Positions 19,460 through 34,175 of a DNA stretch of 64,000 bases are shown here, piece after piece (the stretch's first letter is position 1; each line of letters starts with the position of its first letter). Made by a program: the position numbers and the translations under genes. Under the pieces are notes generated by a model. It was not told where the DNA came from. It saw nothing but the letters and a program-made list of their open reading frames with translations, and did no database searches. The DNA is from Reyranella sp. CPCC 100927 (GTDB lineage Bacteria > Pseudomonadota > Alphaproteobacteria > Reyranellales > Reyranellaceae). The stretch lies in NCBI RefSeq assembly GCF_007859315.1, contig NZ_VOHA01000004.1, forward strand, positions 434,001-498,000, given 5' to 3'.

Positions 19460-20293
19460 TCATCGACGGATCCCGGCATGCCGTGGCGTCACGCTCACGC
19501 GCATTTCGGAGTCCAGCACCAAGCGGCTGCTGACGGCGCCTTGCATTTTCTTGACGTAGGACTCGGCTTCGATGACATGAGCCAGCATCAGCTTGCGCAC
19601 CTTCTCCACGTCGCGTTTGCGGGCGGCATCGAGCAGGGTGCGATGGGCCGCGACATTGGTTCGGCCCATTTCGCCATAGTGCGCATGCATCGGGCTGAGG
19701 CCGAACACGACCAGGCGCCGCAGCATCTGGTTGATCATCTGGCAGGAGAAACGGAGGAACGGGTTGGGGTTGGCTGCGGCGAGGATGTCGTGGAAGTGCA
19801 GGTCTTCCTGGCGCTGTTTCAAGGCCTGGTCGACATCCGCCGCGGCGGGGGCGCATGTTTCGATGCTGGCTTCCAGCGCGACGAAGTCGCGTTTGGTCAG
19901 GTGGGGCACCGCGCCAGCCGCGAGTTCCGGCTCCAGGATACGGCGTACGGCGTAGATGTCGCCGACATCGACATCCTTGAAGAAGAGATAGTTCTGCACC
20001 AGCTGGAACGTGCGTTCGAAGGGGACTTCCACGACGGTGGCGCCGCCGGCCGGACCGGTGCTGACCGAGATAAAGCCCTGGACATCCAGCGACTTCAGCG
20101 CCTCGCGAATCGTGCCCTTGCTGACCGAGAACAGCAGCTGCAGTTCGGCTTCCTTGGGCAGCTTGTCGCCCGGCTTCAATTCACGCGTGACGATCCAGCG
20201 TTTGATTTCCTCCACCACCAGATCGCCGCGCTTGGGCGCGCGCAGGGGGTCGCCTGTCACTTTCCGTGCCTCGACCGTTCGCCTTGCCGTCAT
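19460..20293 (-). CDS. GntR family regulator, FadR/FCD type
   Basis: The 277 residues have a GntR winged helix (LKPGDKLPKEAELQLLFSVSKGTIREALKSLDVQGFISVSTGPAGGATV) and an FCD-type effector domain with the metal-binding His and Asp pattern seen in parts (VRRILEPELAAGAVPHL, HFHDILAAANPNPFLRFSC). It is divergent from the amidase gene and precedes the serine hydrolase gene on its own strand. The palindrome at 20315-20332 is the likely operator. The pair of hydrolases around it suggests control by an organic acid released from an amide. Confidence 0.9.
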   Translation of the reverse strand: MTARRTVEARKVTGDPLRAPKRGDLVVEEIKRWIVTRELKPGDKLPKEAELQLLFSVSKGTIREALKSLDVQGFISVSTGPAGGATVVEVPFERTFQLVQNYLFFKDVDVGDIYAVRRILEPELAAGAVPHLTKRDFVALEASIETCAPAAADVDQALKQRQEDLHFHDILAAANPNPFLRFSCQMINQMLRRLVVFGLSPMHAHYGEMGRTNVAAHRTLLDAARKRDVEKVRKLMLAHVIEAESYVKKMQGAVSSRLVLDSEMRVSVTPRHAGIRR

Positions 20294-21854: not shown

Positions 21855-23048
21855 CTACTTCACCAGCGGGCAGTTGCCGTCCTTGAGCGGGCGATAGGCC
21901 TGGTCGCCGGGGACTGTGGTGATCAGCTTGTAAAGGTCGTCCTTGCTCTTGGACTCGGCCGGTGTCTTGACCTGGAACAGATGCATGTCGCGCACCAGGC
22001 GGCCATCCTCGCGCAGCTTGCCATTCTTGGTCATCATGTCGTTGACCGGTAGTTCGCGCATCTTGGCCATGACAGCCTTGGGCTCGTCGGTCCCGGCGGC
22101 CTGCACGGCCTTCAGGTAGTGCGACGTGGCGCTGTAGACACCGGCAACCGCCATGTTCGGCAGCTTGTCCTTGAGCTTGCGGAAGCGCGCGGTCCAGGCA
22201 CGGGTCTCGTCGTTGAGATCCCAGTAGAACGCCTCGGTCAGCAGCAACCCCTGCGCCACCGGGATGGTGAGCGCCTGTACGTCAGAGGCGAACACCAGAA
22301 GACCTGCCAGTTTCTGATTGCCCTTGCCGATGGCGAATTCACCGGCCTGCTTGATGGCGTTGATGGTGTCGCCGCCGGCATTGGCCAGCGCGATGATCTT
22401 GGCCTTCGATGTCTGTGCCTGCAGCAGGAACGATGAAAAGTCCTGCGTCGAAATCGGGTGTCGCACGCTGCCTACGACCTTGCCGCCAGCCGCGGTCACC
22501 ACCGAGGTGACGTCCTTCTCCAGGGCGTGACCGAAAGCATAGTCGGCCGTCAGGAAGAACCAGGTATCGTAGCCTTCCTTCACCAGCGCCGAGCCGGTGA
22601 CGTGGGCCAGTGCATAGGTGTCGAACACCCAGTGTGCGCCGGTGGCGGAGCAGGCTGGGCCGGTGAGGTCGACGGTACCGGCCGCGGTGTTGATGTCGAT
22701 CTGGCCCTTTTCCTGGGAGACCTGGCGTACCGCCAGCGCCACCGAGGAGGTATCGAGGCCTGTGATCATCTTCACGCCGTCGACGTCATACCATTTGCGC
22801 GCAATGGCGGCGCCGATATCGGCCTTGTTCTGGTGATCGGCCGATACCACCTCGATCGGCCGACCCAGCACCTTGCCGCCGATATCGTTGACCGCCAGCT
22901 GGGCGGCCTCGACCGAGCCGGCGGTGAGATCGGCATAGACGCCGGAGAAGCCATCGAGCACGCCGATCTTTAGCGGCGATTGCGCCCATGCACTGTCCAC
23001 CGACGTCGATGCCAGGGCCAGTATTGCCAAGAGATATCGTCTACGCAT
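21855..23048 (-). CDS. LIV-type ABC solute-binding protein, array copy 1 (type A)
   Basis: The start is the ATG at 23048, preceded by GGAGGG; the protein has 397 residues with a signal peptide ending near SAWAQ. It is a Peripla_BP_6-type binding protein: LKIGVLDGFSGVYADLTAG, VVSADHQNKADIGAAIARKWYD, FFLTADYAFGHALE and AGVYSATSHYLKAVQAAGT. It is the last of four closely related tandem genes. Signature residues (TGLDTSS, DTWFFL, LITTVPG) group it with copy 3 rather than its direct neighbour. It probably feeds the livGFHM transporter nearby. Ligand unknown. Confidence 0.9.
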   Translation of the reverse strand: MRRRYLLAILALASTSVDSAWAQSPLKIGVLDGFSGVYADLTAGSVEAAQLAVNDIGGKVLGRPIEVVSADHQNKADIGAAIARKWYDVDGVKMITGLDTSSVALAVRQVSQEKGQIDINTAAGTVDLTGPACSATGAHWVFDTYALAHVTGSALVKEGYDTWFFLTADYAFGHALEKDVTSVVTAAGGKVVGSVRHPISTQDFSSFLLQAQTSKAKIIALANAGGDTINAIKQAGEFAIGKGNQKLAGLLVFASDVQALTIPVAQGLLLTEAFYWDLNDETRAWTARFRKLKDKLPNMAVAGVYSATSHYLKAVQAAGTDEPKAVMAKMRELPVNDMMTKNGKLREDGRLVRDMHLFQVKTPAESKSKDDLYKLITTVPGDQAYRPLKDGNCPLVK

Positions 23049-23116
23049 TAAACCCTCCACTCAATGTGCATGCCGAGGATGCATCGAGAGCGGAGGGTTT
23101 GTTCAAATCATGACCA

Positions 23117-23143
23117 TCCCATGCCTGTCGTGCACGCATGGGA
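23117..23143 (-). terminator. Hairpin between array copies 2 and 1
   Basis: TCCCATGC (23117-23124) is mirrored by GCATGGGA (23136-23143), an eight-pair stem with an 11-base loop, 12 bases after the stop of copy 2. No T-tract follows on the minus strand, so it may stabilise the upstream message or weaken read-through rather than stop it. A stronger hairpin holds the matching place after copy 4. Confidence 0.4.
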
Positions 23144-23154
23144 CGCTATCGCGA

Positions 23155-24348
23155 TCAGTTCTTGACCAGCGGGCAGTTGCCGTCCTTGAGCGGGCGGTAG
23201 GCCTGATCGCCCGGTACCGTGGCGATCAGCTTGTAGATGTCGTCCTTGCCCTTGGACTCGGCCGGCGACTTCACCTGGAACAAGTACATGTCGCGCACCA
23301 GGCGGCCATCCTCGCGCAGCTTGCCGTTCTTGGTCATGACGTCGTTGACCGGCAGCTCGCGCATCTTGGCCATGACCGCCTTGGGCTCGTCGGTGCCGGC
23401 GGCCTGCACCGCCTTCAGGTAGTGCAGGGTGGAACTGTAGACACCCACCGTCAGCATGCTGGGCAGCTTGTCCTTGCGCTTGCGATAGCGCGCCGTCCAT
23501 GCACGGGTCTCGTCGTTGAGATCCCAGTAGAACGCTTCGGTCAGCACCAGGCCCTGGGCCACCGGCAAGGTCAGTGACTGCACGTCGGTGGCGAACACCA
23601 GCAGGCCGGCCAGTTTCTGGCCGCCCTTGACGATGCCGAATTCACCAGCCTGCTTGATCGAGTTGATGGTGTCGGCGCCGGCGTTGGCAAGGCCGATGAT
23701 CTTCGCTTTGGATGCCTGGGCCTGCAGCAGGAACGACGAGAAATCCTGGGTCGAGAGCGGGTGCCGGACGCCGCCCAGCACCTTGCCGCCGTTGCTGGTG
23801 ACGACCGACGTGACATCGCGCTCCAGCGCATGGCCGAAGGCGTAGTCGGCGGTGAGGAAGTACCAGGAGTCGCCGCCCGCCTTCACCAGCGCCGAGCCGG
23901 TGACGTGGGCCAGCGCGTAGGTGTCGTAGACCCAGTGCGCGCCGGTGGGCGAGCACGACGGGCCGGTGAGGTCGACGGACGCGGCGCCGGTGTTGATGTC
24001 GATCTTGCCTTTTTCCTGGGCAATCTTGCGCACGGCCAGCGCGACCGACGATGTCCCGATGCCGGTGATCATCTTCACGTCGTCGACGTCGTACCATTTG
24101 CGGGCGATGGCGGCGCCGACGTCGGGCTTCGTCTGGTGGTCGGCCGACAGGATCTCGATGGGACGGCCCAGAACCTTGCCGCCGAAATCATCGATCGCCA
24201 TCTGGATCGCTTCGACCTCGCCGATGGTGAGGTCGCCGTAGACGCCCGAGAATCCTTCCATGACGCCGATGCGCAGGGGGGCCTGCGCCCAGGCGGTGCT
24301 GCCGAGCAGCGCGCCCAGGACGAGGCCTGCAAAGAGGGATTTCTTCAT
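23155..24348 (-). CDS. LIV-type ABC solute-binding protein, array copy 2 (type B)
   Basis: The 397-residue protein starts MKKSLFAGLVLGALLGSTAWAQ, a clear signal peptide, with GGAGG in front of the ATG. It shares the fold and most motifs of its neighbours, including the Cys pair in PSCSPTGAHW and GNCPLVKN. Features such as DSWYFL, EKGKIDINTG, LPSMLT and LIATVPG group it with copy 4. The gene follows copy 3 after only 39 bases. It is a periplasmic receptor for a LIV-type transporter; the ligand is unknown. Confidence 0.9.
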   Translation of the reverse strand: MKKSLFAGLVLGALLGSTAWAQAPLRIGVMEGFSGVYGDLTIGEVEAIQMAIDDFGGKVLGRPIEILSADHQTKPDVGAAIARKWYDVDDVKMITGIGTSSVALAVRKIAQEKGKIDINTGAASVDLTGPSCSPTGAHWVYDTYALAHVTGSALVKAGGDSWYFLTADYAFGHALERDVTSVVTSNGGKVLGGVRHPLSTQDFSSFLLQAQASKAKIIGLANAGADTINSIKQAGEFGIVKGGQKLAGLLVFATDVQSLTLPVAQGLVLTEAFYWDLNDETRAWTARYRKRKDKLPSMLTVGVYSSTLHYLKAVQAAGTDEPKAVMAKMRELPVNDVMTKNGKLREDGRLVRDMYLFQVKSPAESKGKDDIYKLIATVPGDQAYRPLKDGNCPLVKN

Positions 24349-24387
24349 GTGTTACCTCCTAACTGTTTGATCATGTCGTTGAGCTTC

Positions 24388-25584
24388 TTACTGTTTGACC
24401 AGCGGGCAGTTGCCGTCCTTGAGCGGGCGGTAGGCCTGTTCGCCGGGCACCGTGGTGATCAGCTTGTAGACATCGTCCTTGCTCTTGGACTCGGACGGCG
24501 CCTTCACCTGGAACACATGCATGTCGCGGACCAGGCGACCATCTTCGCGCAGCTTGCCGTTCTTGGTCATCATGTCGTTGACGGGCAGCTCGCGCATCTT
24601 GGCCATGACAGCCTTGGCTTCGTCGGTGCCGGCTGCCTGTACCGCCTTCAGATAGTGCAGCGTGGCGCTGTAGGCACCGGCGATCACCATGTTGGGCAGC
24701 TTGTCCTTGCGCTTGCGGAACTTTGCGGTCCAGGCGCGGGTCTCGTCGTTGAGGTCCCAGTAGAACGCCTCGGTCAGCACCAGGCCCTGGGCCAAGGGCA
24801 GGGTCATCGCCTGGATGTCGGTGGCGAAGTTCACCAGGGTGACCAGCTTCTGGCCGCCCTTGCCGATGGCGAACTCGTTGGCCTGCTTGATCGAGTTGAC
24901 GGAGTCGGCACCGCCGTTGGCGAGCGCGATGATCTTGGCCTTGGAGGCCTGCGCCTGGAGCAGGAACGACGAGAAATCCTGGGTCGCCAGCGGGTGCTTG
25001 ACGGTGCCCACGATCTTGCCGCCGTTGGCGGTCACCACGGCCGTGAGGTCGCGTTCGATCGCGTGGCCGAAGGCGTAGTCGGCGGTCAGCAGGAACCAGG
25101 TATCGTCGCCGGCCTTGGCCAGCGCCGAGCCGACGACCTGGGCCAGGGCGTAGGTGTCGTAGACCCAGTGCGCACCGGTGGCCGAGCATGACGGTCCGGT
25201 AAGATCGACCGTTCCGGCCACGGTGTGGATGTCGATCCGGCCCTTTTCCTGGGCGATCTTGCGTACTGCCAGTGCCACCGATGAGGTGTCGAGGCCGGTG
25301 ATCATCTTGACATCGTCGACGTCGTACCACTTGCGGGCAATGGCGACGCCGATGTCGGGCTTGTTCTGGTGATCGGCTGTCAGGATCTCGATCGGCCGCC
25401 CCAGGACCTTTCCGCCCATCTCGTCGACCGCCATCTGGGCGGCCTCGATCTCGCCACTGATGAGGTCGGAGAAGACGCCCGAGAATCCCCCGATGACGCC
25501 GATGCGCAAGGGGGCCTGGGCCCACGCGCTGCCGGCCGTCAGCGCTGACAGGATGAGACCGGCGATCAGATGCTTCTTCTTCAT
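24388..25584 (-). CDS. LIV-type ABC solute-binding protein, array copy 3 (type A)
   Basis: I chose the ATG at 25584 (MKKKHLIAGLILSALTAGSAWAQ), preceded by GGGAGG; the longer frame upstream lacks a signal. The mature part has LRIGVIGGFSGVFSDLISG, LTADHQNKPDIGVAIARKWYD and FLLTADYAFGHAIERDL. TGLDTSS, DTWFLL, VAGTVDLTGP and LITTVPG mark it as close to copy 1. It differs in places that could shape the pocket, such as LVTLVNFATDIQAMTLPLAQ. It lies after the hairpin at 25618-25660. Confidence 0.9.
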   Translation of the reverse strand: MKKKHLIAGLILSALTAGSAWAQAPLRIGVIGGFSGVFSDLISGEIEAAQMAVDEMGGKVLGRPIEILTADHQNKPDIGVAIARKWYDVDDVKMITGLDTSSVALAVRKIAQEKGRIDIHTVAGTVDLTGPSCSATGAHWVYDTYALAQVVGSALAKAGDDTWFLLTADYAFGHAIERDLTAVVTANGGKIVGTVKHPLATQDFSSFLLQAQASKAKIIALANGGADSVNSIKQANEFAIGKGGQKLVTLVNFATDIQAMTLPLAQGLVLTEAFYWDLNDETRAWTAKFRKRKDKLPNMVIAGAYSATLHYLKAVQAAGTDEAKAVMAKMRELPVNDMMTKNGKLREDGRLVRDMHVFQVKAPSESKSKDDVYKLITTVPGEQAYRPLKDGNCPLVKQ

Positions 25585-25617
25585 GATATGCTCCCTCCCG
25601 AAGGCATTCGCGCCCAA

Positions 25618-25660
25618 CTCAAACGGAACGACGGTTCGTGTGAACCGTCGTTCGCTTGAG
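25618..25660 (-). terminator. Long hairpin between array copies 4 and 3
   Basis: GAACGACGGTTC (25626-25637), loop GTGT and GAACCGTCGTTC (25642-25653) form a perfect 12-pair stem, and CTCAA (25618-25622) with TTGAG (25656-25660) extends it. It begins 15 bases after the stop of copy 4 and lies 34 bases before the start of copy 3. There is no T-tract. It likely stabilises the copy 4 message or lowers read-through, so copy 4 would be the most abundant receptor. Confidence 0.55.
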
Positions 25661-25674
25661 CCGGTGGTGCCAAC

Positions 25675-26871
25675 TCAGTTCTTGATCAGTGGGCAGTTGC
25701 TGTCCTTGAGCGGACGGTAGGCCTGATCGCCCGGTACGGTGGCGACCAGCTTGTAGATGTCGTCCTTGCTCTTGGATTCGGCCGGCGCCTTCACCTGGAA
25801 CAGGTACATGTCGCGGATCAGCCGGCCATCGGCGCGCACTTTGCCGTTCTTGGTCATGAAGTCGTTGACCGGCAGTTCGTGCAGCTTGGCCATCACCGCC
25901 TTGGGCTCGTCGGTGCCGGCAGCCTGTACGGCTTTCAGATAGGCGAGGGTGGCGCTGTAGACGCCCGCGGTCAGCATGCTGGGCAGCTTGTCCTTGCGCT
26001 TGCGGAAGCGGGCCGTCCATTCGCGGGTCTGGTCGTTGAGATCCCAGTAGAACGCCTCGGTCAGCACCAGGCCCTGGGCCACCGACAGGCCCAGCGACTG
26101 CACGTCGGTGGCGAACACCAGCAGGCCGGCGAGTTTCTGGCCGCCCTTACCGATGCCGAACTCGTTGGCCTGCTTGATCGACGTGATCGTGTCGGCGCCG
26201 GCATTGGCCAGACCGATGATCTTCGCCTTCGAGGCCTGCGCCTGCAGCAGGAACGACGAGAAGTCCTGGCTCGACAGCGGATGCTTGACGCCGCCCACCA
26301 CCTTGCCGCCAGCCGCCTTGACGACCGCGGTCACATCGCGCTCCAGGGCGTGGCCGAACGCGTAGTCGGCGGTCAGGAAGAACCAGCTGTCGCCGCCGTC
26401 CTTCACCACGGCCGAGCCGGTCACCTGGGCCAGCGCGTAGGTGTCATAGATCCAGTGGGCGCCGGTCGCCGAACACGATGCACCCGTCAGGTCGGCCGTC
26501 GCCGAGCCGGTGTTGATGTCGATCTTGCCCTTTTCCTGGGCGATCTTGCGCACCGCCAGTCCGACCGACGACGTGTCGATGCCGGTGATCATCTTGACGT
26601 CGTCGATGTCGTACCACTTGCGCGCCAGCGCGGCGCCGACATCGGGCTTGTTCTGGTGGTCCGCGGATACCACTTCGATCGGGCGGCCCAGGACCTTGCC
26701 GCCAAAATCATCAACGGCCATCTGTGCCGCTTCAGGTTGACCTGCGGTCAAGTCACCATAGACACCAGAGAAGCCTGCAAGAACGCCGATTCGGAACGGC
26801 GCCTGCTGCGCCCAGGCGCTGCCGGTGGACAGCAAAGCCGCGATGGCGGCGCCGACGATGATTTTTTTCAT
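25675..26871 (-). CDS. LIV-type ABC solute-binding protein, array copy 4 (type B)
   Basis: The start is the ATG at 26871 (MKKIIVGAAIAALLSTGSAWAQQ), with GGAGG five bases upstream; 398 residues. It is the first gene of the four-gene array and so nearest to the promoter region. DSWFFL, EKGKIDINTG, LPSMLT and LVATVPG place it with copy 2. The ligand-facing regions cannot be assigned to a compound. The fold and signal peptide show a periplasmic binding protein of an ABC importer. Confidence 0.9.
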   Translation of the reverse strand: MKKIIVGAAIAALLSTGSAWAQQAPFRIGVLAGFSGVYGDLTAGQPEAAQMAVDDFGGKVLGRPIEVVSADHQNKPDVGAALARKWYDIDDVKMITGIDTSSVGLAVRKIAQEKGKIDINTGSATADLTGASCSATGAHWIYDTYALAQVTGSAVVKDGGDSWFFLTADYAFGHALERDVTAVVKAAGGKVVGGVKHPLSSQDFSSFLLQAQASKAKIIGLANAGADTITSIKQANEFGIGKGGQKLAGLLVFATDVQSLGLSVAQGLVLTEAFYWDLNDQTREWTARFRKRKDKLPSMLTAGVYSATLAYLKAVQAAGTDEPKAVMAKLHELPVNDFMTKNGKVRADGRLIRDMYLFQVKAPAESKSKDDIYKLVATVPGDQAYRPLKDSNCPLIKN

Positions 26872-27170
26872 GAAACCTCCCGCATACGCAAATTGCACAT
26901 ACAGGTCGTTATAAACATTTCACAGATGCGAAACCATAGCACCCCATCGCAGAGCGGGGCGGGACGGCGGCAACAGGTGTGCCAGTCGGGCAACTTGCGC
27001 GACGTGCAAAGGCGTTTGCTTTTCAAGCAACAGACTTTGCATAGTAAGCAAATTGATGTTGACTATAATGCAAAACATTGAGAGTAATGCTGTGTGCAGC
27101 GAAGGCGTGGACGGATTGCAGCGACATGCCGGGCGCATCAGTTCCAGCGATTTTGATGAGGGAGGAGCTC
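26872..27170. promoter_or_regulatory. Divergent regulatory gap between the receptor array and the cupin gene
   Basis: The 299-base gap is AT-richer than its surroundings, mainly at 27010-27080. It has two small inverted repeats, TTGCTT-TTC-AAGCAA (27016-27030) and TTTGC-7-GCAAA (27036-27052), next to a consensus minus-10 TATAAT at 27064-27069. I see no good minus-35 at the right distance, so an activator may be needed. The inverted repeats would suit a regulator controlling the minus-strand array and the plus-strand catabolic genes together. Confidence 0.45.
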
Positions 27171-27617
27171 ATGAGCGAGACGGCACGCCCATCGCGCAAG
27201 GATGGGGACCACGCGTTCGAAGCCATTCATGCCGACGAGCGTCCCTGGGAGACGCTTCGCTTCGACGGAGTCCAGAGCAAGATGCTGTTCCACCCGCGGC
27301 CGGATCGGCCCACGGAACCCAATGCAGGATTTGTCCGCTATGCACCGGGCACAGGCTATCCGCTGCACCGGCATGACTTCGCGCAGATCTGGTACATCAT
27401 GGAAGGCGAATTCATCGTCGACGGCAAGACGTACGGGCCCGGCACGATGGTGTTTCATCCCGATCCGCACTTCGAAGCGGAAATGCACACCAAGACCGGC
27501 GGTGTCTGGCTCATCGTCCAGTACCAGGGACCCAGCACCAGCCAGCCGGCCATTTACGAAGGCCGCTTCAATATGACCGAGCGCAAGCCGCTGGCGCAGG
27601 AACGCCTCGACGTTTGA
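27171..27617 (+). CDS. Cupin domain protein
   Basis: I chose the ATG at 27171, which has GGAGGAG just upstream; 148 residues. The cupin motif 1 is seen as GTGYPLHRHDFAQIWYIMEGEFIVDGKTYGPG (two His and a Glu as metal ligands) and motif 2 as GTMVFHPDPHFEAEMHTKTG. It is a small metal-binding beta-barrel that may be an enzyme, a lyase or dioxygenase of the cupin type, or a sensor. It is the first gene of a plus-strand unit leading to an alcohol dehydrogenase, a binding protein and livGFHM. Confidence 0.85.
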   Translation: MSETARPSRKDGDHAFEAIHADERPWETLRFDGVQSKMLFHPRPDRPTEPNAGFVRYAPGTGYPLHRHDFAQIWYIMEGEFIVDGKTYGPGTMVFHPDPHFEAEMHTKTGGVWLIVQYQGPSTSQPAIYEGRFNMTERKPLAQERLDV

Positions 27618-28890: not shown

Positions 28891-30099
28891 GTGGCAAGGT
28901 ATACTCTGACCGCAGCATGGCTTCTGGGTTTCGCGTGCGTGCTCAACGCGCCGGCGAGCCGGGCCGACGGAATGTCCGACGGTGTGATCCGGATCGGTAT
29001 CTTGAACGACCGCTCGGGGCCGTACGCTGACTTGACGGGCGAAGGCTCCGTGGTCGCCGCGCGCATGGCGGCAGAGGAGGCGGGCGGCACCGTTGCGGGT
29101 GTGCCCATCGAGATCATCTCTGCCGATCATCAGAACAAGGCCGACGTCGGAGCCGCCGTCGCCAGACGTTGGTTCGACGCCGGCCAGGTCGATGTCGTTG
29201 CCGACCTGTCGAACTCGGCGGTCGGCTTCGCGACCGTCGGGCTCGCAGCGGAAAGGAACAAGATCGTATTGAATGCCTCGGGTTCCGCCGACTTCACGAG
29301 CAAAGCCTGCACGGCCATCTCCTTCCAGTCGCCGTACAACAGCTACACCAATGCATTCGGACTGGCGAGCGCAGTGACGAAGCGTGGACTCGACTCGTGG
29401 TTTCTCGTTACGGTCGACTATGCCTTCGGGCGTGCGCTGGCGACGGATATCCGCCGCGCCGCTGAAGCGAACGGCGGCAAAGTGCTCGGCGAGGTCCGCC
29501 ATCCGGTCAATGTGACCGACTTCAGCTCGTATTTGTTGCAAGCCCAGTCGTCGGGCGCCAAGGTGATCGCCCTGGCGAATGCCGGCAACGACTTCGTGAA
29601 CAGCCTCAAGCAGGCGGTCGAGTTCGGCATCACAAAGAAGCAGGTCGTGGTGGCGCCGACCGTCTTTCTGACGGATATCAACGCCATCGGCTTGCCGACA
29701 GCCCAGGGGCTCCAGTTCATCACCGGGTTCTACTGGGATCGTGACGATGCCTCGCGGGCATGGGCGAAGCGATTCTTCGAACGTCACGGCGCGATGCCGA
29801 CCATGAGCCAGGCCGGCGTATATTCGATGGTCCGCCACTACCTTCGTGCCGTCCAGGCCGTCGGCACGGATGACGGCCCGACGGTGGCTGCCAGGATGCG
29901 CGACCTTCCGGTCACCGACTTTTTCGGCGGCCGCGTGCGGGCAGACGGTCAGTTCCTGCACGATATGTACCTGGCTCGCGTCAAGAAGCCTGCCGAATCG
30001 CAGCGCAAATGGGACTATTACGACATTCTCTCCACGATCCCCGCCGAGCAAGCCTTCCGTCCCGTGGAGCAGGGCGATTGCCCGATGATCAAAAAGTAA
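28891..30099 (+). CDS. LIV-type ABC solute-binding protein, copy 5
   Basis: The start is a GTG at 28891 with GGGGAGG ahead; 402 residues with a signal peptide ending near ASRADG. It belongs to the same family as the four array genes (ADHQNKADVGAAVARRWFD, VDYAFGRALATDI, DFSSYLLQAQSSGAKVIALANAG) but is more diverged, and the conserved Cys pair is kept (KACTAISF and GDCPMIKK). It faces the array across the cupin and dehydrogenase genes and precedes livGFHM, so it is the natural cognate receptor for that transporter. Confidence 0.9.
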   Translation: MARYTLTAAWLLGFACVLNAPASRADGMSDGVIRIGILNDRSGPYADLTGEGSVVAARMAAEEAGGTVAGVPIEIISADHQNKADVGAAVARRWFDAGQVDVVADLSNSAVGFATVGLAAERNKIVLNASGSADFTSKACTAISFQSPYNSYTNAFGLASAVTKRGLDSWFLVTVDYAFGRALATDIRRAAEANGGKVLGEVRHPVNVTDFSSYLLQAQSSGAKVIALANAGNDFVNSLKQAVEFGITKKQVVVAPTVFLTDINAIGLPTAQGLQFITGFYWDRDDASRAWAKRFFERHGAMPTMSQAGVYSMVRHYLRAVQAVGTDDGPTVAARMRDLPVTDFFGGRVRADGQFLHDMYLARVKKPAESQRKWDYYDILSTIPAEQAFRPVEQGDCPMIKK

Positions 30100-30113
30100 G
30101 ACGGTGTATCTGT

Positions 30114-30170
30114 TGCATGCAATAACTTGTCTTGCATACAATATCTTAAAATGCATACAATAGAACCATG
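30114..30170 (+). promoter_or_regulatory. Three 19-bp direct repeats ahead of livG
   Basis: TGCATGCAATA begins at 30114, and TGCATACAATA begins at 30133 and 30152: the three cores are spaced exactly 19 bases apart, close to two helical turns, so they face the same side of the DNA. Each core resembles half of the TTGTATGCAA-type sites of GntR/FCD regulators when read on the other strand. They lie 15 bases after the stop of binding protein copy 5 and about 280 bases before livG. The rest of the gap (30171-30445) holds the palindromic element described next and nothing else I can name. Confidence 0.6.
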
Positions 30171-30246
30171 AAGCAGATCAGCCGTGCCGGCATCCGGTTC
30201 CGTTCGCTGCGCTCGGCGTGAAGCATGATATGTGCCACGTGGTGCC

Positions 30247-30317
30247 GTTGTCGTTTCGCACGAAGCGGGAAACATCTCCGCGAGCCAAGACGTCCCGATC
30301 ACGCCGGGAATGACAAC
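30247..30317. repeat. Extragenic palindromic element ahead of livG
   Basis: GTTGTC at 30247-30252 is mirrored by GACAAC at 30312-30317, and the ends match further with two mismatches (GTTGTCGTTTC against GTTGTCATTCC). Inside are smaller stems such as TCCCG-7-CGGGA. This looks like a REP or small MITE-type element, 71 bases long, between binding protein copy 5 and livG. A genome search would show whether it is repeated. Confidence 0.4.
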
Positions 30318-30445
30318 CATACGATCCGGTGAGGTCGCGCGGCGAAACAAGGCTTTGGATTTGACACGGTCGGTGGCGTTGTTTTTGTTTGCGGGCTCGT
30401 GCTATGGCTCGGCCTACAGGGAAGGCACGCGTACAAGAAGGCAAG

Positions 30446-31201
30446 ATGGCAGACGATATTATTCTCGAGGCGACAGGCCTGACGAAGGAGTTTCTGGGAT
30501 TCGTCGCTGTTAAGGATGTCGATTTGCGCGTGCGTCGTCATTCGATCCACGCGCTGATCGGTCCTAACGGCGCGGGGAAGACGACGTGCTTCAACCTGCT
30601 GACCCACTTCCTAGTTCCAACCTCGGGACGCATCCGCTTCAACGGCAACGATATCACCGGCAGTTCGCCGGCCGCGATCGCACGCATGGGGCTGGTGCGT
30701 TCGTTTCAGATCTCGGCCGTGTTCCCGCATCTGTCGGTGCGCGACAACGTTCGCGTGGCTTTGCAGCGGCCATTACGCAACTCTTTCCAATTCTGGCGCA
30801 GTGAACGTGTTCTTGACTCACTGAATGCGCGCGCCTTGGAATTGATCGACGCGGTTGGCTTGGGACCCTATGCCGAGTTGCCCGCGGTGGAGCTGCCGTA
30901 CGGCCGCAAACGCGCGCTGGAGATCGCCACGACCCTCGCCCTCGATCCGGAGATGATGTTGCTCGACGAACCGATGGCGGGTTTGGCGCACGAGGATATC
31001 GATCGCATCGCTGCTTTGATCCGCAAAGTCGCGGCTGATCGCACGGTGCTGATGGTCGAACACAACATGTCCGTGGTCGCGGACCTGTCCGACATGATCA
31101 CGGTGCTGGCGCGTGGCGAGAAACTGGCCGAAGGGCCATACGGCGAGGTGTCCAAGCATCCCCAGGTGATTGAAGCTTATGTCGGGACCGGTCATGGCTG
31201 A
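30446..31201 (+). CDS. livG: LIV-type ABC transporter ATPase LivG
   Basis: I chose the ATG at 30446 (MADDIILEATGLTKEFLGF), preceded by AAGAAGG; 251 residues. It has Walker A GPNGAGKTT, the LIV-specific insert after VRSFQISAVFPHLSVRDNVRVALQ, a signature region LPYGRKRALEIATTLALDPEMMLLDEP with Walker B, and the H-loop as VEHNM. The signature is PYGRKRALE rather than LSGGQ, as is usual for LivG. It powers uptake with LivF and is followed by livF with an eight-base overlap. Confidence 0.92.
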   Translation: MADDIILEATGLTKEFLGFVAVKDVDLRVRRHSIHALIGPNGAGKTTCFNLLTHFLVPTSGRIRFNGNDITGSSPAAIARMGLVRSFQISAVFPHLSVRDNVRVALQRPLRNSFQFWRSERVLDSLNARALELIDAVGLGPYAELPAVELPYGRKRALEIATTLALDPEMMLLDEPMAGLAHEDIDRIAALIRKVAADRTVLMVEHNMSVVADLSDMITVLARGEKLAEGPYGEVSKHPQVIEAYVGTGHG

Positions 31202-31898
31202 GCCGCTTCTGAAGGTCTCGGGCCTGCACGCCTGGTACGGCGAATCGCACATTCTGCAGGGCGTCGATTTCGAGGTCGGGAAGGGCGAGATCGTCACCCT
31301 GCTGGGCCGCAATGGAGCCGGCAAGACGACGACGCTGAAGTCGGTCATGGGCATCGTCGGCAAGCGCCAGGGCAAAATCGTGTTCGATGGCGAGGAGACG
31401 GTCGGCCGGCCCTCGGACTTCATCGCGCGCTGCGGCATTGCCTATTGCCCGGAGGAGCGCGGCATTTTCGCCAGCCTCAACGTCGAGGAAAACCTGATGC
31501 TGCCGCCGGTCGTGAAGCCGGGTGGCGTGACGATCGACGAGATCTACAAGCTGTTCCCCAATCTGTTGGAGCGGCGGCGCAGCCAGGGCACGAAACTGTC
31601 GGGTGGCGAGCAGCAGATGCTGGCCATCGGCCGCATTCTGCGCACCGGCGCCAGCATGCTGCTGCTGGACGAACCGACCGAAGGCCTGGCGCCGGTGATC
31701 GTGCAGCGGATCGGCGAAGTGATTCGCCAGCTGAAGGCGCGCGGTTTCACGGTGCTGCTGGTGGAGCAGAATTTTCGCTTCGCTGCGACGCTGGCCGACC
31801 GGCATTACATCGTCGAGGACGGCCGGGTGATTGACATGATCAAGGCGGCCGACGTCGAGCGCAGTATCGACAAGCTGCACGAATACCTGGGTGTTTAA
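31194..31898 (+). CDS. livF: LIV-type ABC transporter ATPase LivF
   Basis: I chose the ATG at 31194 (MAEPLLKVSGLHAWYGESH), inside the end of livG; 234 residues. Walker A is GRNGAGKTTTLKS, the signature is LSGGEQQMLAIGRILRTG, Walker B is MLLLDEPTEGLAP, and the H-loop region reads VLLVEQNFRFA. GIAYCPEERGIFASLNVEENL is the LivF-type Q-loop segment. It forms the cytosolic ATPase pair with LivG. Confidence 0.92.
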   Translation: MAEPLLKVSGLHAWYGESHILQGVDFEVGKGEIVTLLGRNGAGKTTTLKSVMGIVGKRQGKIVFDGEETVGRPSDFIARCGIAYCPEERGIFASLNVEENLMLPPVVKPGGVTIDEIYKLFPNLLERRRSQGTKLSGGEQQMLAIGRILRTGASMLLLDEPTEGLAPVIVQRIGEVIRQLKARGFTVLLVEQNFRFAATLADRHYIVEDGRVIDMIKAADVERSIDKLHEYLGV

Positions 31899-31939
31899 GA
31901 TGACCATCCTTGACACCGCCGCGGGCGGGTGAGGGCGCG

Positions 31940-32821
31940 ATGTTCGAATTGCTCGGAATCCCGCCACAGGCACTGTTCGGCCAGCTGTTGCTGGGCCTGA
32001 TCAATGGTGCCTTCTACGCCATGCTCAGCCTTGGGCTGGCGGTGATCTTCGGTCTTCTCAACGTCATCAACTTCACGCACGGCGCCCAGTACATGATGGG
32101 GGCCTTCGCGGCCTGGCTGATGCTGGGCTATCTCGGCATCCCGTTCTGGGTCTCGCTGGTGCTGGCGCCGATCATCGTCGCCTTGTTCGGCGTGCTGCTC
32201 GAACGCCTGTTGCTGCGACGAATCTACCACCTCGATCACCTCTACGGCTTTCTGCTGACTTTCGGCCTGGCGCTGATCATCGAGGGTCTGTTTCGATGGC
32301 GCTGGGGCTCATCCGGTCAGCCCTACGACAACCCGATACCTGGCGGCGTCAATCTCGGATTCATGTTCCTGCCGTACTATCGTGGCTGGGTGGTGGTGGC
32401 ATCGCTCGTGATCTGCCTGGCCACCTGGTATGCCATCGAGCGCACGCGGCTGGGTGCCTATCTGCGGGCGGCGACGGAAAATCCGACGCTGGTGCGGGCC
32501 TTCGGCATCAACGTGCCGCGCATGATCACGCTGACCTATGCCTTTGGCGTCGGGCTGGCGGCACTGGCCGGTGTTCTGGCGGCGCCGATCCAGCAGGTTT
32601 CGGCGCTGATGGGAACCAACCTGGTGCTGGTGGTGTTTGCCGTCGTCGTGATCGGCGGTATGGGCTCGATCATGGGTTCGATCGTCACCGGCTTCGGGCT
32701 AGGCGTCATCGAAGGCTTGACCAAGGTGGCCTATCCGCCGGCGTCGAACATCGTGATCTTCGTCGTTATGGCCGTGGTTCTGCTCGTCAAGCCGGCTGGC
32801 CTCTTCGGGCGGACCAAATGA
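31940..32821 (+). CDS. livH: LIV-type ABC transporter permease LivH
   Basis: I chose the ATG at 31940 (MFELLGIPPQALFGQLLLGLINGAFYAMLSLGLAVIFG); 293 residues with about eight membrane helices. The family marks NGAFYAMLSLGLAVIFGLLNVINFTHG and TENPTLVRAFGINVPRMITLTYAFGVGLAALAGVL are clear. It forms the membrane channel with LivM. The stop overlaps the livM start by four bases (ATGA). Confidence 0.92.
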   Translation: MFELLGIPPQALFGQLLLGLINGAFYAMLSLGLAVIFGLLNVINFTHGAQYMMGAFAAWLMLGYLGIPFWVSLVLAPIIVALFGVLLERLLLRRIYHLDHLYGFLLTFGLALIIEGLFRWRWGSSGQPYDNPIPGGVNLGFMFLPYYRGWVVVASLVICLATWYAIERTRLGAYLRAATENPTLVRAFGINVPRMITLTYAFGVGLAALAGVLAAPIQQVSALMGTNLVLVVFAVVVIGGMGSIMGSIVTGFGLGVIEGLTKVAYPPASNIVIFVVMAVVLLVKPAGLFGRTK

Positions 32822-33756
32822 CCTCACGGACCTTCGGTTTCATCCTGCTCGCGGCGGCGCTGGTTGCGCCGTTCGTGGCCTATCCCGTGTTCCTGATGAC
32901 GGCGCTGTGCTTTGCGCTGTTCACCTGTGCCTTCAATCTGCTGATTGGCTATGTCGGCCTGATGAGCTTCGGCCATGCGATGTTCTTCGGCATGGCCGCC
33001 TACGTCTGCGGCCACGCCATCAAGGTCTGGGGCTGGCCACCCGAATTGGCACTGCTGGCCGGCGCCGCCGTTGCTGGTGCGCTGGGCGTTGTCACCGGTG
33101 CGCTGGCGATCCGCCGACAGGGTATCTATTTCGCCATGATCACCCTGGCGTTCAGCCAGATGGTCTTCTTCTTCTGCCTGCAGGCGCCATTCACCGGCGG
33201 CGAGGACGGGCTGCAGGGCGTGCCGCGCAGCCCCATGCTGGGCGGTCTGCTGCCGATCCAGAACGATACGGTCCTGTACTATGTCGTCCTGGCGATCTTC
33301 CTGTTCGGTTTCGGCGCCGTCTATCGCATCATCCACTCGCCGTTCGGACAGGTGCTGAAGGCGATCCGCGAGAACGAGCAGCGCGCCATTTCGCTGGGCT
33401 ACAACGCTGATCGTTACAAGCTGGTTGCGTTCGTCCTGTCGGCGACCCTGGCAGGACTGGCGGGTGCGCTCAAGGCGATCGTGATGCAGTTTGCGACGCT
33501 GACCGACGTGACGGCGGCGATGTCGGGCGAGGTCGTGCTGATGGCACTGATCGGCGGCATTGGCACCATCTTCGGACCCGTGGTCGGCGCTTTGGTGATC
33601 ATCACCATGCAGAACTACCTTGCTGCCACGGGCGAGTGGGTCCTGGTGATTCAGGGTGTCATCTTCGTCGTCATCGTGCTGGCGTTCCGCAAGGGTGTGG
33701 TCGGCGAGATCGCCGATCGCTGGCGCGCGTATACGACGCGATCTTCGAAATCCTGA
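32818..33756 (+). CDS. livM: LIV-type ABC transporter permease LivM
   Basis: I chose the ATG at 32818, which overlaps the livH stop; 312 residues. FNLLIGYVGLMSFGHAMFFGMAAYVCGHA, LAIRRQGIYFAMITLAFSQMVFF, GEDGLQGVPRS and LKAIRENEQRAISLGYNADRYKLVAFVLSATLAGLAGALKA are all LivM hallmarks. It completes the transporter livGFHM. A hairpin follows before the convergent HxlR gene. Confidence 0.92.
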   Translation: MTSRTFGFILLAAALVAPFVAYPVFLMTALCFALFTCAFNLLIGYVGLMSFGHAMFFGMAAYVCGHAIKVWGWPPELALLAGAAVAGALGVVTGALAIRRQGIYFAMITLAFSQMVFFFCLQAPFTGGEDGLQGVPRSPMLGGLLPIQNDTVLYYVVLAIFLFGFGAVYRIIHSPFGQVLKAIRENEQRAISLGYNADRYKLVAFVLSATLAGLAGALKAIVMQFATLTDVTAAMSGEVVLMALIGGIGTIFGPVVGALVIITMQNYLAATGEWVLVIQGVIFVVIVLAFRKGVVGEIADRWRAYTTRSSKS

Positions 33757-33800: not shown

Positions 33801-34175
33801 GCGGAGCACTCGAAGCGGCGGTCGGGGCAGGGTCGGCGGCGTCCAGACGACGCCATCCTTGGCCAATCGGGCCTTGCCCCAATCCATCATCGGCGTCAGC
33901 AGGGAAACCAGTCCGTGGCCGTCCGGCGTGAGGGCGTACATTGACCCGCTGCTGTTGCGTGTTCGCCGGATAATGCCGTCCGCCTCCAGTTCCTTGAGAA
34001 GGGATGACAGCACCTGCTGGCTGACGCCGGCGGTTGCCTTGCGCAGCTGGCCGAAACTCAGCCGGTCCAGCGACAACAGATAAAGGATGCGCACCTTCCA
34101 CTTGCCCGAGACGATGGCTAGCACCGTCTCGACGGGGCAGGGATCGAGCGCCGGGCGTTTGCGGTCGTAGGGCAC
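33798..34175 (-). CDS. HxlR family regulator
   Basis: The 125-residue protein (GTG start) has the HxlR winged helix: DPCPVETVLAIVSGKWKVRILYLLSLDRLSFGQLRKATAGVSQQVLSSLLKELEADGIIRRT, with the conserved Cys in PCPVE that can sense thiols or electrophiles in this family. It is divergent from the small membrane protein gene 89 bases away and probably controls it. Confidence 0.9.
   Translation of the reverse strand: MPYDRKRPALDPCPVETVLAIVSGKWKVRILYLLSLDRLSFGQLRKATAGVSQQVLSSLLKELEADGIIRRTRNSSGSMYALTPDGHGLVSLLTPMMDWGKARLAKDGVVWTPPTLPRPPLRVLR

Follow-up and report, generated by a model that had tools for sequence, protein, structure and literature searches.

Among the described operators of GntR-type regulators, one of the closest to the locus examined here is that of Atu1419 from Agrobacterium fabrum, a GntR/FCD protein of the VanR group which binds the 10-mer ATGTATACAT overlapping the -10 box of two promoters, contacts the DNA through Glu34, Arg45, Thr46 and Arg49, and represses by covering the promoter until a small molecule lifts the repression (PMC7797058). 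NanR of Escherichia coli, a GntR repressor with three GGTATA repeats, binds cooperatively as three dimers (PMC8012715). Upstream of the gene for Ms0535, a VanR-like GntR protein of Mycobacterium smegmatis, two TTGCATGCA sites are protected by the protein (PMC4609117), and a comparative study reports double sites with extra half-sites 7-12 nt from the site centres (PMC4494728).

The locus that we describe here, three palindromes spaced 19 bp apart ahead of a livG-type gene, resembles each of these systems in part. As with Atu1419, the site is a short 10-bp palindrome with a TGTATACA core over a -10 box, here a possible one, and autoregulation is predicted, with aromatic catabolic genes on the Atu1419 side; unlike here, where two or three sites follow one another at 19 bp, the sites of Atu1419 are 109-190 bp apart and tetramer looping is thought to join them (PMC7797058). 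The likeness to NanR is in the three repeats at a promoter and in the use of one operator type at several operons. The NanR repeats, however, are not palindromes and follow one another at less than half a helical turn, whereas ours are 19-bp-spaced palindromes, and its cooperativity needs a 32-residue N-terminal extension (PMC8012715), which is absent from the regulator proposed below, the GntR domain match of which begins at residue 13; neither the packed non-palindromic repeats nor the N-terminal extension of a NanR-type cooperative triple-repeat operator was thus found. The two sites of Ms0535, unlike the present array, are inverted with a 4-nt spacer, and the protein acts as an activator (PMC4609117). 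A literature search for the sequence TTGTATACAA together with GntR returned no match, and the literature listings surveyed on GntR/FCD operators did not mention any array of three palindromes with a 19-bp step.

The window, that is, the whole analysed stretch of 64,000 nucleotides from Reyranella sp. CPCC 100927, carries the following features around the array (all on the plus strand; the starts of the four downstream genes were placed by eye):
28891..30099, plus: LivK-type substrate-binding protein gene, ending 14 bp before the array
30113..30122, plus: predicted operator copy 1, TTGCATGCAA, a perfect palindrome
30132..30141, plus: predicted operator copy 2, TTGCATACAA, an imperfect palindrome whose first six bases are a possible -35 element
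30151..30160, plus: predicted operator copy 3, ATGCATACAA, an imperfect palindrome
30156..30161, plus: possible -10 element TACAAT, 18 bp after the TTGCAT at 30132; a weak match with 8/12 consensus bases
30446..31201, plus: livG-type ATPase gene, the first downstream of the array (ORF 30389-31201)
31194..31898, plus: livF-type ATPase gene (ORF 31170-31898)
31940..32821, plus: livH-type permease gene (ORF 31910-32821)
32818..33756, plus: livM-type permease gene (ORF 32296-33756)

Beyond this livGFHM operon lies an HxlR gene (33801-34175). On the minus strand, 21855-26898 holds four tandem LivK-type genes, which share 76-83% identity among themselves and about 47-50% with the fifth, 28891-30099. 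Another set of phased palindromes, three copies of TTGC-N7-GCAA exactly 21 bp apart, occupies 26995-27051 upstream of a cupin gene near 27078-27617, and a genome search for the phased pair of that motif, with up to one mismatch allowed, found no other occurrence.

In the window sequence, the phased repeats TGCATGCA, TGCATACA and TGCATACA stand at 30114, 30133 and 30152 with a step of exactly 19 bp, as the first-pass annotation had read them; TGCATGCAATA is found at 30114, and TGCATACAATA at 30133 and 30152. They had been described there as direct repeats, and repeated and phased they are; each copy, however, is a 10-bp palindrome of the form TTGYATRCAA (perfect or imperfect), i.e., a full two-fold site, which makes the array three full predicted operators in a row and not plain direct repeats. 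The spacers between the palindromes are unrelated in sequence, and the array is therefore not a simple tandem duplication. The spacing had also been taken as close to two turns of the helix. B-DNA has 10.5 bp per turn, so by arithmetic the 19-bp step corresponds to about 1.8 turns, and neighbouring sites would lie near each other, rotated by roughly 70 degrees. The array ends about 285 bp ahead of livG, and the 71-bp stretch 30100-30170 has a G+C content of 35% vs 65% across the window. Allowing one mismatch, TGCATRCAATA has four matches in the window (the three copies and the reverse reading of copy 1) vs a shuffle mean of 0.55, and the phased pair has one match vs 0.00 expected; among 20,000 dinucleotide shuffles of the same 71-bp stretch, the pair appeared once and the triple never. 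The stretch between the array and livG (30163-30446), searched as a repeated element, matched the genome only at itself.

We then searched the genome (9,084,006 bases, 9.08 Mb, in 81 contigs) for the exact pattern TGYATRCA-N11-TGYATRCA. It matched a total of 7 phased pairs, which fall at just four loci, so that the genome-wide search for phased sets of the core, proposed as a check in the first-pass annotation, yielded three further loci, all of them on contig C7 and within 12 kb:
C7:60120-60165: three copies, before a CaiB-type CoA-transferase gene
C7:66277-66303: two copies, before a cupin gene (named by eye) read on the other strand
C7:72032-72077: three copies, between a divergent GntR/FCD gene and a LivK-type substrate-binding protein (SBP) gene
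C34:464114-464159: three copies, the array of the window itself
C7:72125-72853, outside the window: the GntR/FCD regulator gene

With two mismatches allowed, four further places in the genome were matched vs two forward matches of a reversed control pattern, and the reversed pattern had no match in 101 genomes. The bases TG.AT.CA are common to all 11 copies of the four arrays. Three of these copies are symmetric; the remaining eight are not, and each of them reads TGCATACA in the direction of the target gene assigned to its array, the SBP gene and not the regulator being taken as the target of the C7:72032 array. The earlier suggestion of a distant or unlinked regulator is thereby supported, since the same phased sites recur at three C7 loci, one of which adjoins a GntR/FCD gene.

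The product of that gene, C7:72125-72853, has the two domains of a FadR-type GntR/FCD protein (PF00392 at 58.7 bits, cut-off 27; PF07729 at 66.1 bits, cut-off 24.3), and its GntR domain match starts at residue 13. Its closest solved protein is PDB 6z74 (E 7.7e-17), which we take to be Atu1419 from the topic of the Atu1419 paper, the search table naming it only as a GntR-family regulator. In the alignment to 6z74, the C7 protein keeps the SRTPVR stretch and the helix-2 Glu, and it has the counterparts of the DNA-contact residues Glu34, Arg45, Thr46 and Arg49 of Atu1419. Its own promoter region, moreover, holds the same site at the same spacing (C7:72032-72077). From the array and its palindromes, the four genomic loci, the adjoining regulator gene, and the recurrence beside GntR/FCD genes elsewhere (below), all read from sequence, we consider it highly probable that the repeats are three adjacent operators of one VanR-like GntR/FCD repressor, that encoded at C7:72125-72853. 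A GntR/FCD gene within the window (19463-20293, minus strand) was considered as the regulator and rejected; its product is 23.5% identical to the C7 protein, and its upstream region is without the motif and holds an unrelated AT-rich palindrome.

The array could instead be bound by another GntR/FCD protein, chiefly the paralogue encoded at C12:717071-717706, or by both paralogues. This protein is 36-37% identical to the C7 regulator, has TTGCATGCAAT sites with the same palindrome beside its own gene, and as a user of that palindrome could cross-bind the array. Its locus (L019, G000:C12:708000-727000), however, has TTGCATGCAAT-like sites at C12:716944, 716964, and 717047, the closest pair of which is 20 bp apart; and the sister genome G001 keeps the C12-type protein at 92% identity, with TTGCATGCAAT sites and a 20-bp pair there too, yet has neither the 19-bp array nor a close C7-type regulator. 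This observation indicates that, within the few genomes of which the question can be asked, the 19-bp array goes with the C7 gene, and we regard binding by the C12 paralogue, or by both, as improbable.

Comparisons with relatives were made at several depths. The exact phased pair was found in one of 101 genomes, that of the window itself, and was absent from the 100 relatives. Lack of conservation in relatives had been named in the first-pass annotation as evidence against a regulatory site, and this is partly what we found; on the other side, the same 100 genomes also have no regulator closely related to that of C7, while the array stands at four loci of its own genome and the same architecture lies beside GntR/FCD genes in unrelated bacteria. 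With both the array and the regulator absent from the relatives, phylogenetic footprinting of the livG promoter was impossible. Relatives of the C7 regulator were matched in 4 of 101 genomes at E 1e-30 (none above 42% identity apart from its own gene) and in 3 of 385 genomes at E 1e-40, and the best family matches of the SBP upstream of the array are only 50-53% identical. Among plasmids, 31 records carry a GntR relative and 323 an SBP relative, all below 60% identity. Close paired sites were present in 9 of the 398 genomes of a phylum sample, and the 11 pairs outside the genome of the window had spacings of 13, 14, 21, 23, 24, and 26 (by count of the printed matches), never 19.

A scan that used no protein was made for three TGNATNCA at 19 bp, a looser pattern, across the collection genome_contigs, described as 84,980 species (about 85,000 genomes). 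It returned 49 stretches, the genome of the window not among them, which divided into 27 simple tandem repeats and 22 arrays with unrelated spacers (the cut was set at 8/11 identical spacer bases in the first array of each locus). A GntR-like ORF lay within 1 kb of 13/22 unrelated-spacer arrays vs 0/27 tandem repeats (Fisher p 1.9e-6); the HMM used for this count had been trained on those very ORFs, but phmmer, which needs no training, picked out the same 13 loci. The 13 loci include Faecalicatena and related gut Firmicutes, two spirochaete-type records (Breznakiella, MS502-93), and a Xanthobacteraceae bin, although several of them, being from related gut Firmicutes, are not independent. In the Xanthobacteraceae bin (L054), a GntR/FCD gene and an Asp/Glu-racemase-like gene (named by eye) diverge from the two sides of the array. 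When the 13 regulators were aligned with those of C7 and C12 (L054 has two GntR ORFs, one of which was left out), all 15 carried GntR and FCD domains, and E32, S42, R43, P45, and R47 were invariant. A GntR gene was not detected within 1 kb of the other 9 of the 22 arrays; three of these nine (L047, L062, and L069) have perfect TGYATRCA cores in all three copies and are possibly further targets of unlinked regulators.

The scan bears on a further explanation, in which the repeats are recognised by a nucleoid protein or by a regulator from some other family, and the GntR gene on C7 is a neighbour by coincidence. A LysR-like gene (named by eye) does adjoin the C7:60120 array. Nevertheless, 13 of 22 arrays found without reference to any protein lie by GntR/FCD genes in other bacteria, and the characterised GntR proteins Atu1419 and Ms0535 bind the same palindrome (PMC7797058; PMC4609117), which leaves such a coincidence very unlikely. 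Still harder to credit is the notion that no regulator is involved and that the copies are mere repeats of promoter elements, or a tandem duplication in the course of decay, as TTGCAT and TACAAT do resemble -35 and -10 hexamers but the palindromes are kept while the spacers are unrelated, and palindromes and phase alike are common to four loci.

The predicted operators of the C7 repressor could contain a promoter. A TTGCAT in the next-to-last copy, followed after 18 bp by a TACAAT in the last and directed toward the target, is present in three of the four genomic arrays, the fourth having TACATT. These hexamers are weak matches, other segments of the same stretches scoring equally, and a stricter consensus promoter scan of the window did not list them. 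The shared orientation of the asymmetric copies would be accounted for if the operator concealed a -10 hexamer.

In the mechanism that we propose, one dimer of the C7 repressor would sit on each palindrome, three in a row, and neighbouring dimers, 19 bp apart, would aid each other's binding. The bound dimers would hide the promoter that copies 2 and 3 are proposed to contain (TTGCAT, 18 bp, TACAAT), and binding of a pathway effector would make the repressor leave and turn livGFHM on. From such an internal promoter the ATPase and permease genes alone would be transcribed, to the exclusion of the LivK-type gene 28891..30099, which lies upstream of the array and so would not be driven by it. The C7 regulator would in this way couple transporter synthesis to a distant pathway, the cluster at C7:46000-85999, which encodes HMGL-like, D-glutamate-cyclase-like, zinc-type dehydrogenase, and arylmalonate-decarboxylase-like enzymes together with molybdenum hydroxylase subunits, an isochorismatase-type hydrolase, and a CoA-transferase. 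No homologues of the LivG, LivF, LivH, or LivM proteins of the window were found in these 40 kb. The likely purpose of the arrangement is to supply the C7 cluster's binding protein with permease and ATPase; as the C7 SBP gene is itself under an array, in a neighbourhood without a permease gene, its product would on the simplest reading borrow livGFHM. Identities of 43-47% between the C7 protein and the five binding proteins of the window make such sharing plausible.

The array would belong, judging by its sequence, among the operators of GntR/FCD repressors, and the presence of exactly this triple 19-bp form in other, distant bacteria may deserve more than that placement. More tentatively, we raise the possibility that three palindromes at 19 bp are a distinct GntR/FCD operator architecture recurring in unrelated phyla, in which the step would be set jointly by edge-to-edge dimer packing and by the TTGCAT-18 bp-TACAAT arrangement, the array itself being the promoter, and that the remote livGFHM may be an internal, separately switched permease module for the C7 cluster. 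In essence, an unannotated promoter gains a candidate regulator, a predicted four-promoter regulon, and a spacing rule, and a ‘generic’ branched-chain-type transporter would be tied to a specific catabolic pathway. Should the triple array at 19 bp prove to be a general signature of GntR/FCD proteins, it would offer a simple DNA pattern for finding the regulons of this repressor family, which is very large and for the most part uncharacterised, and would also reveal targets that lie far from the regulator gene.
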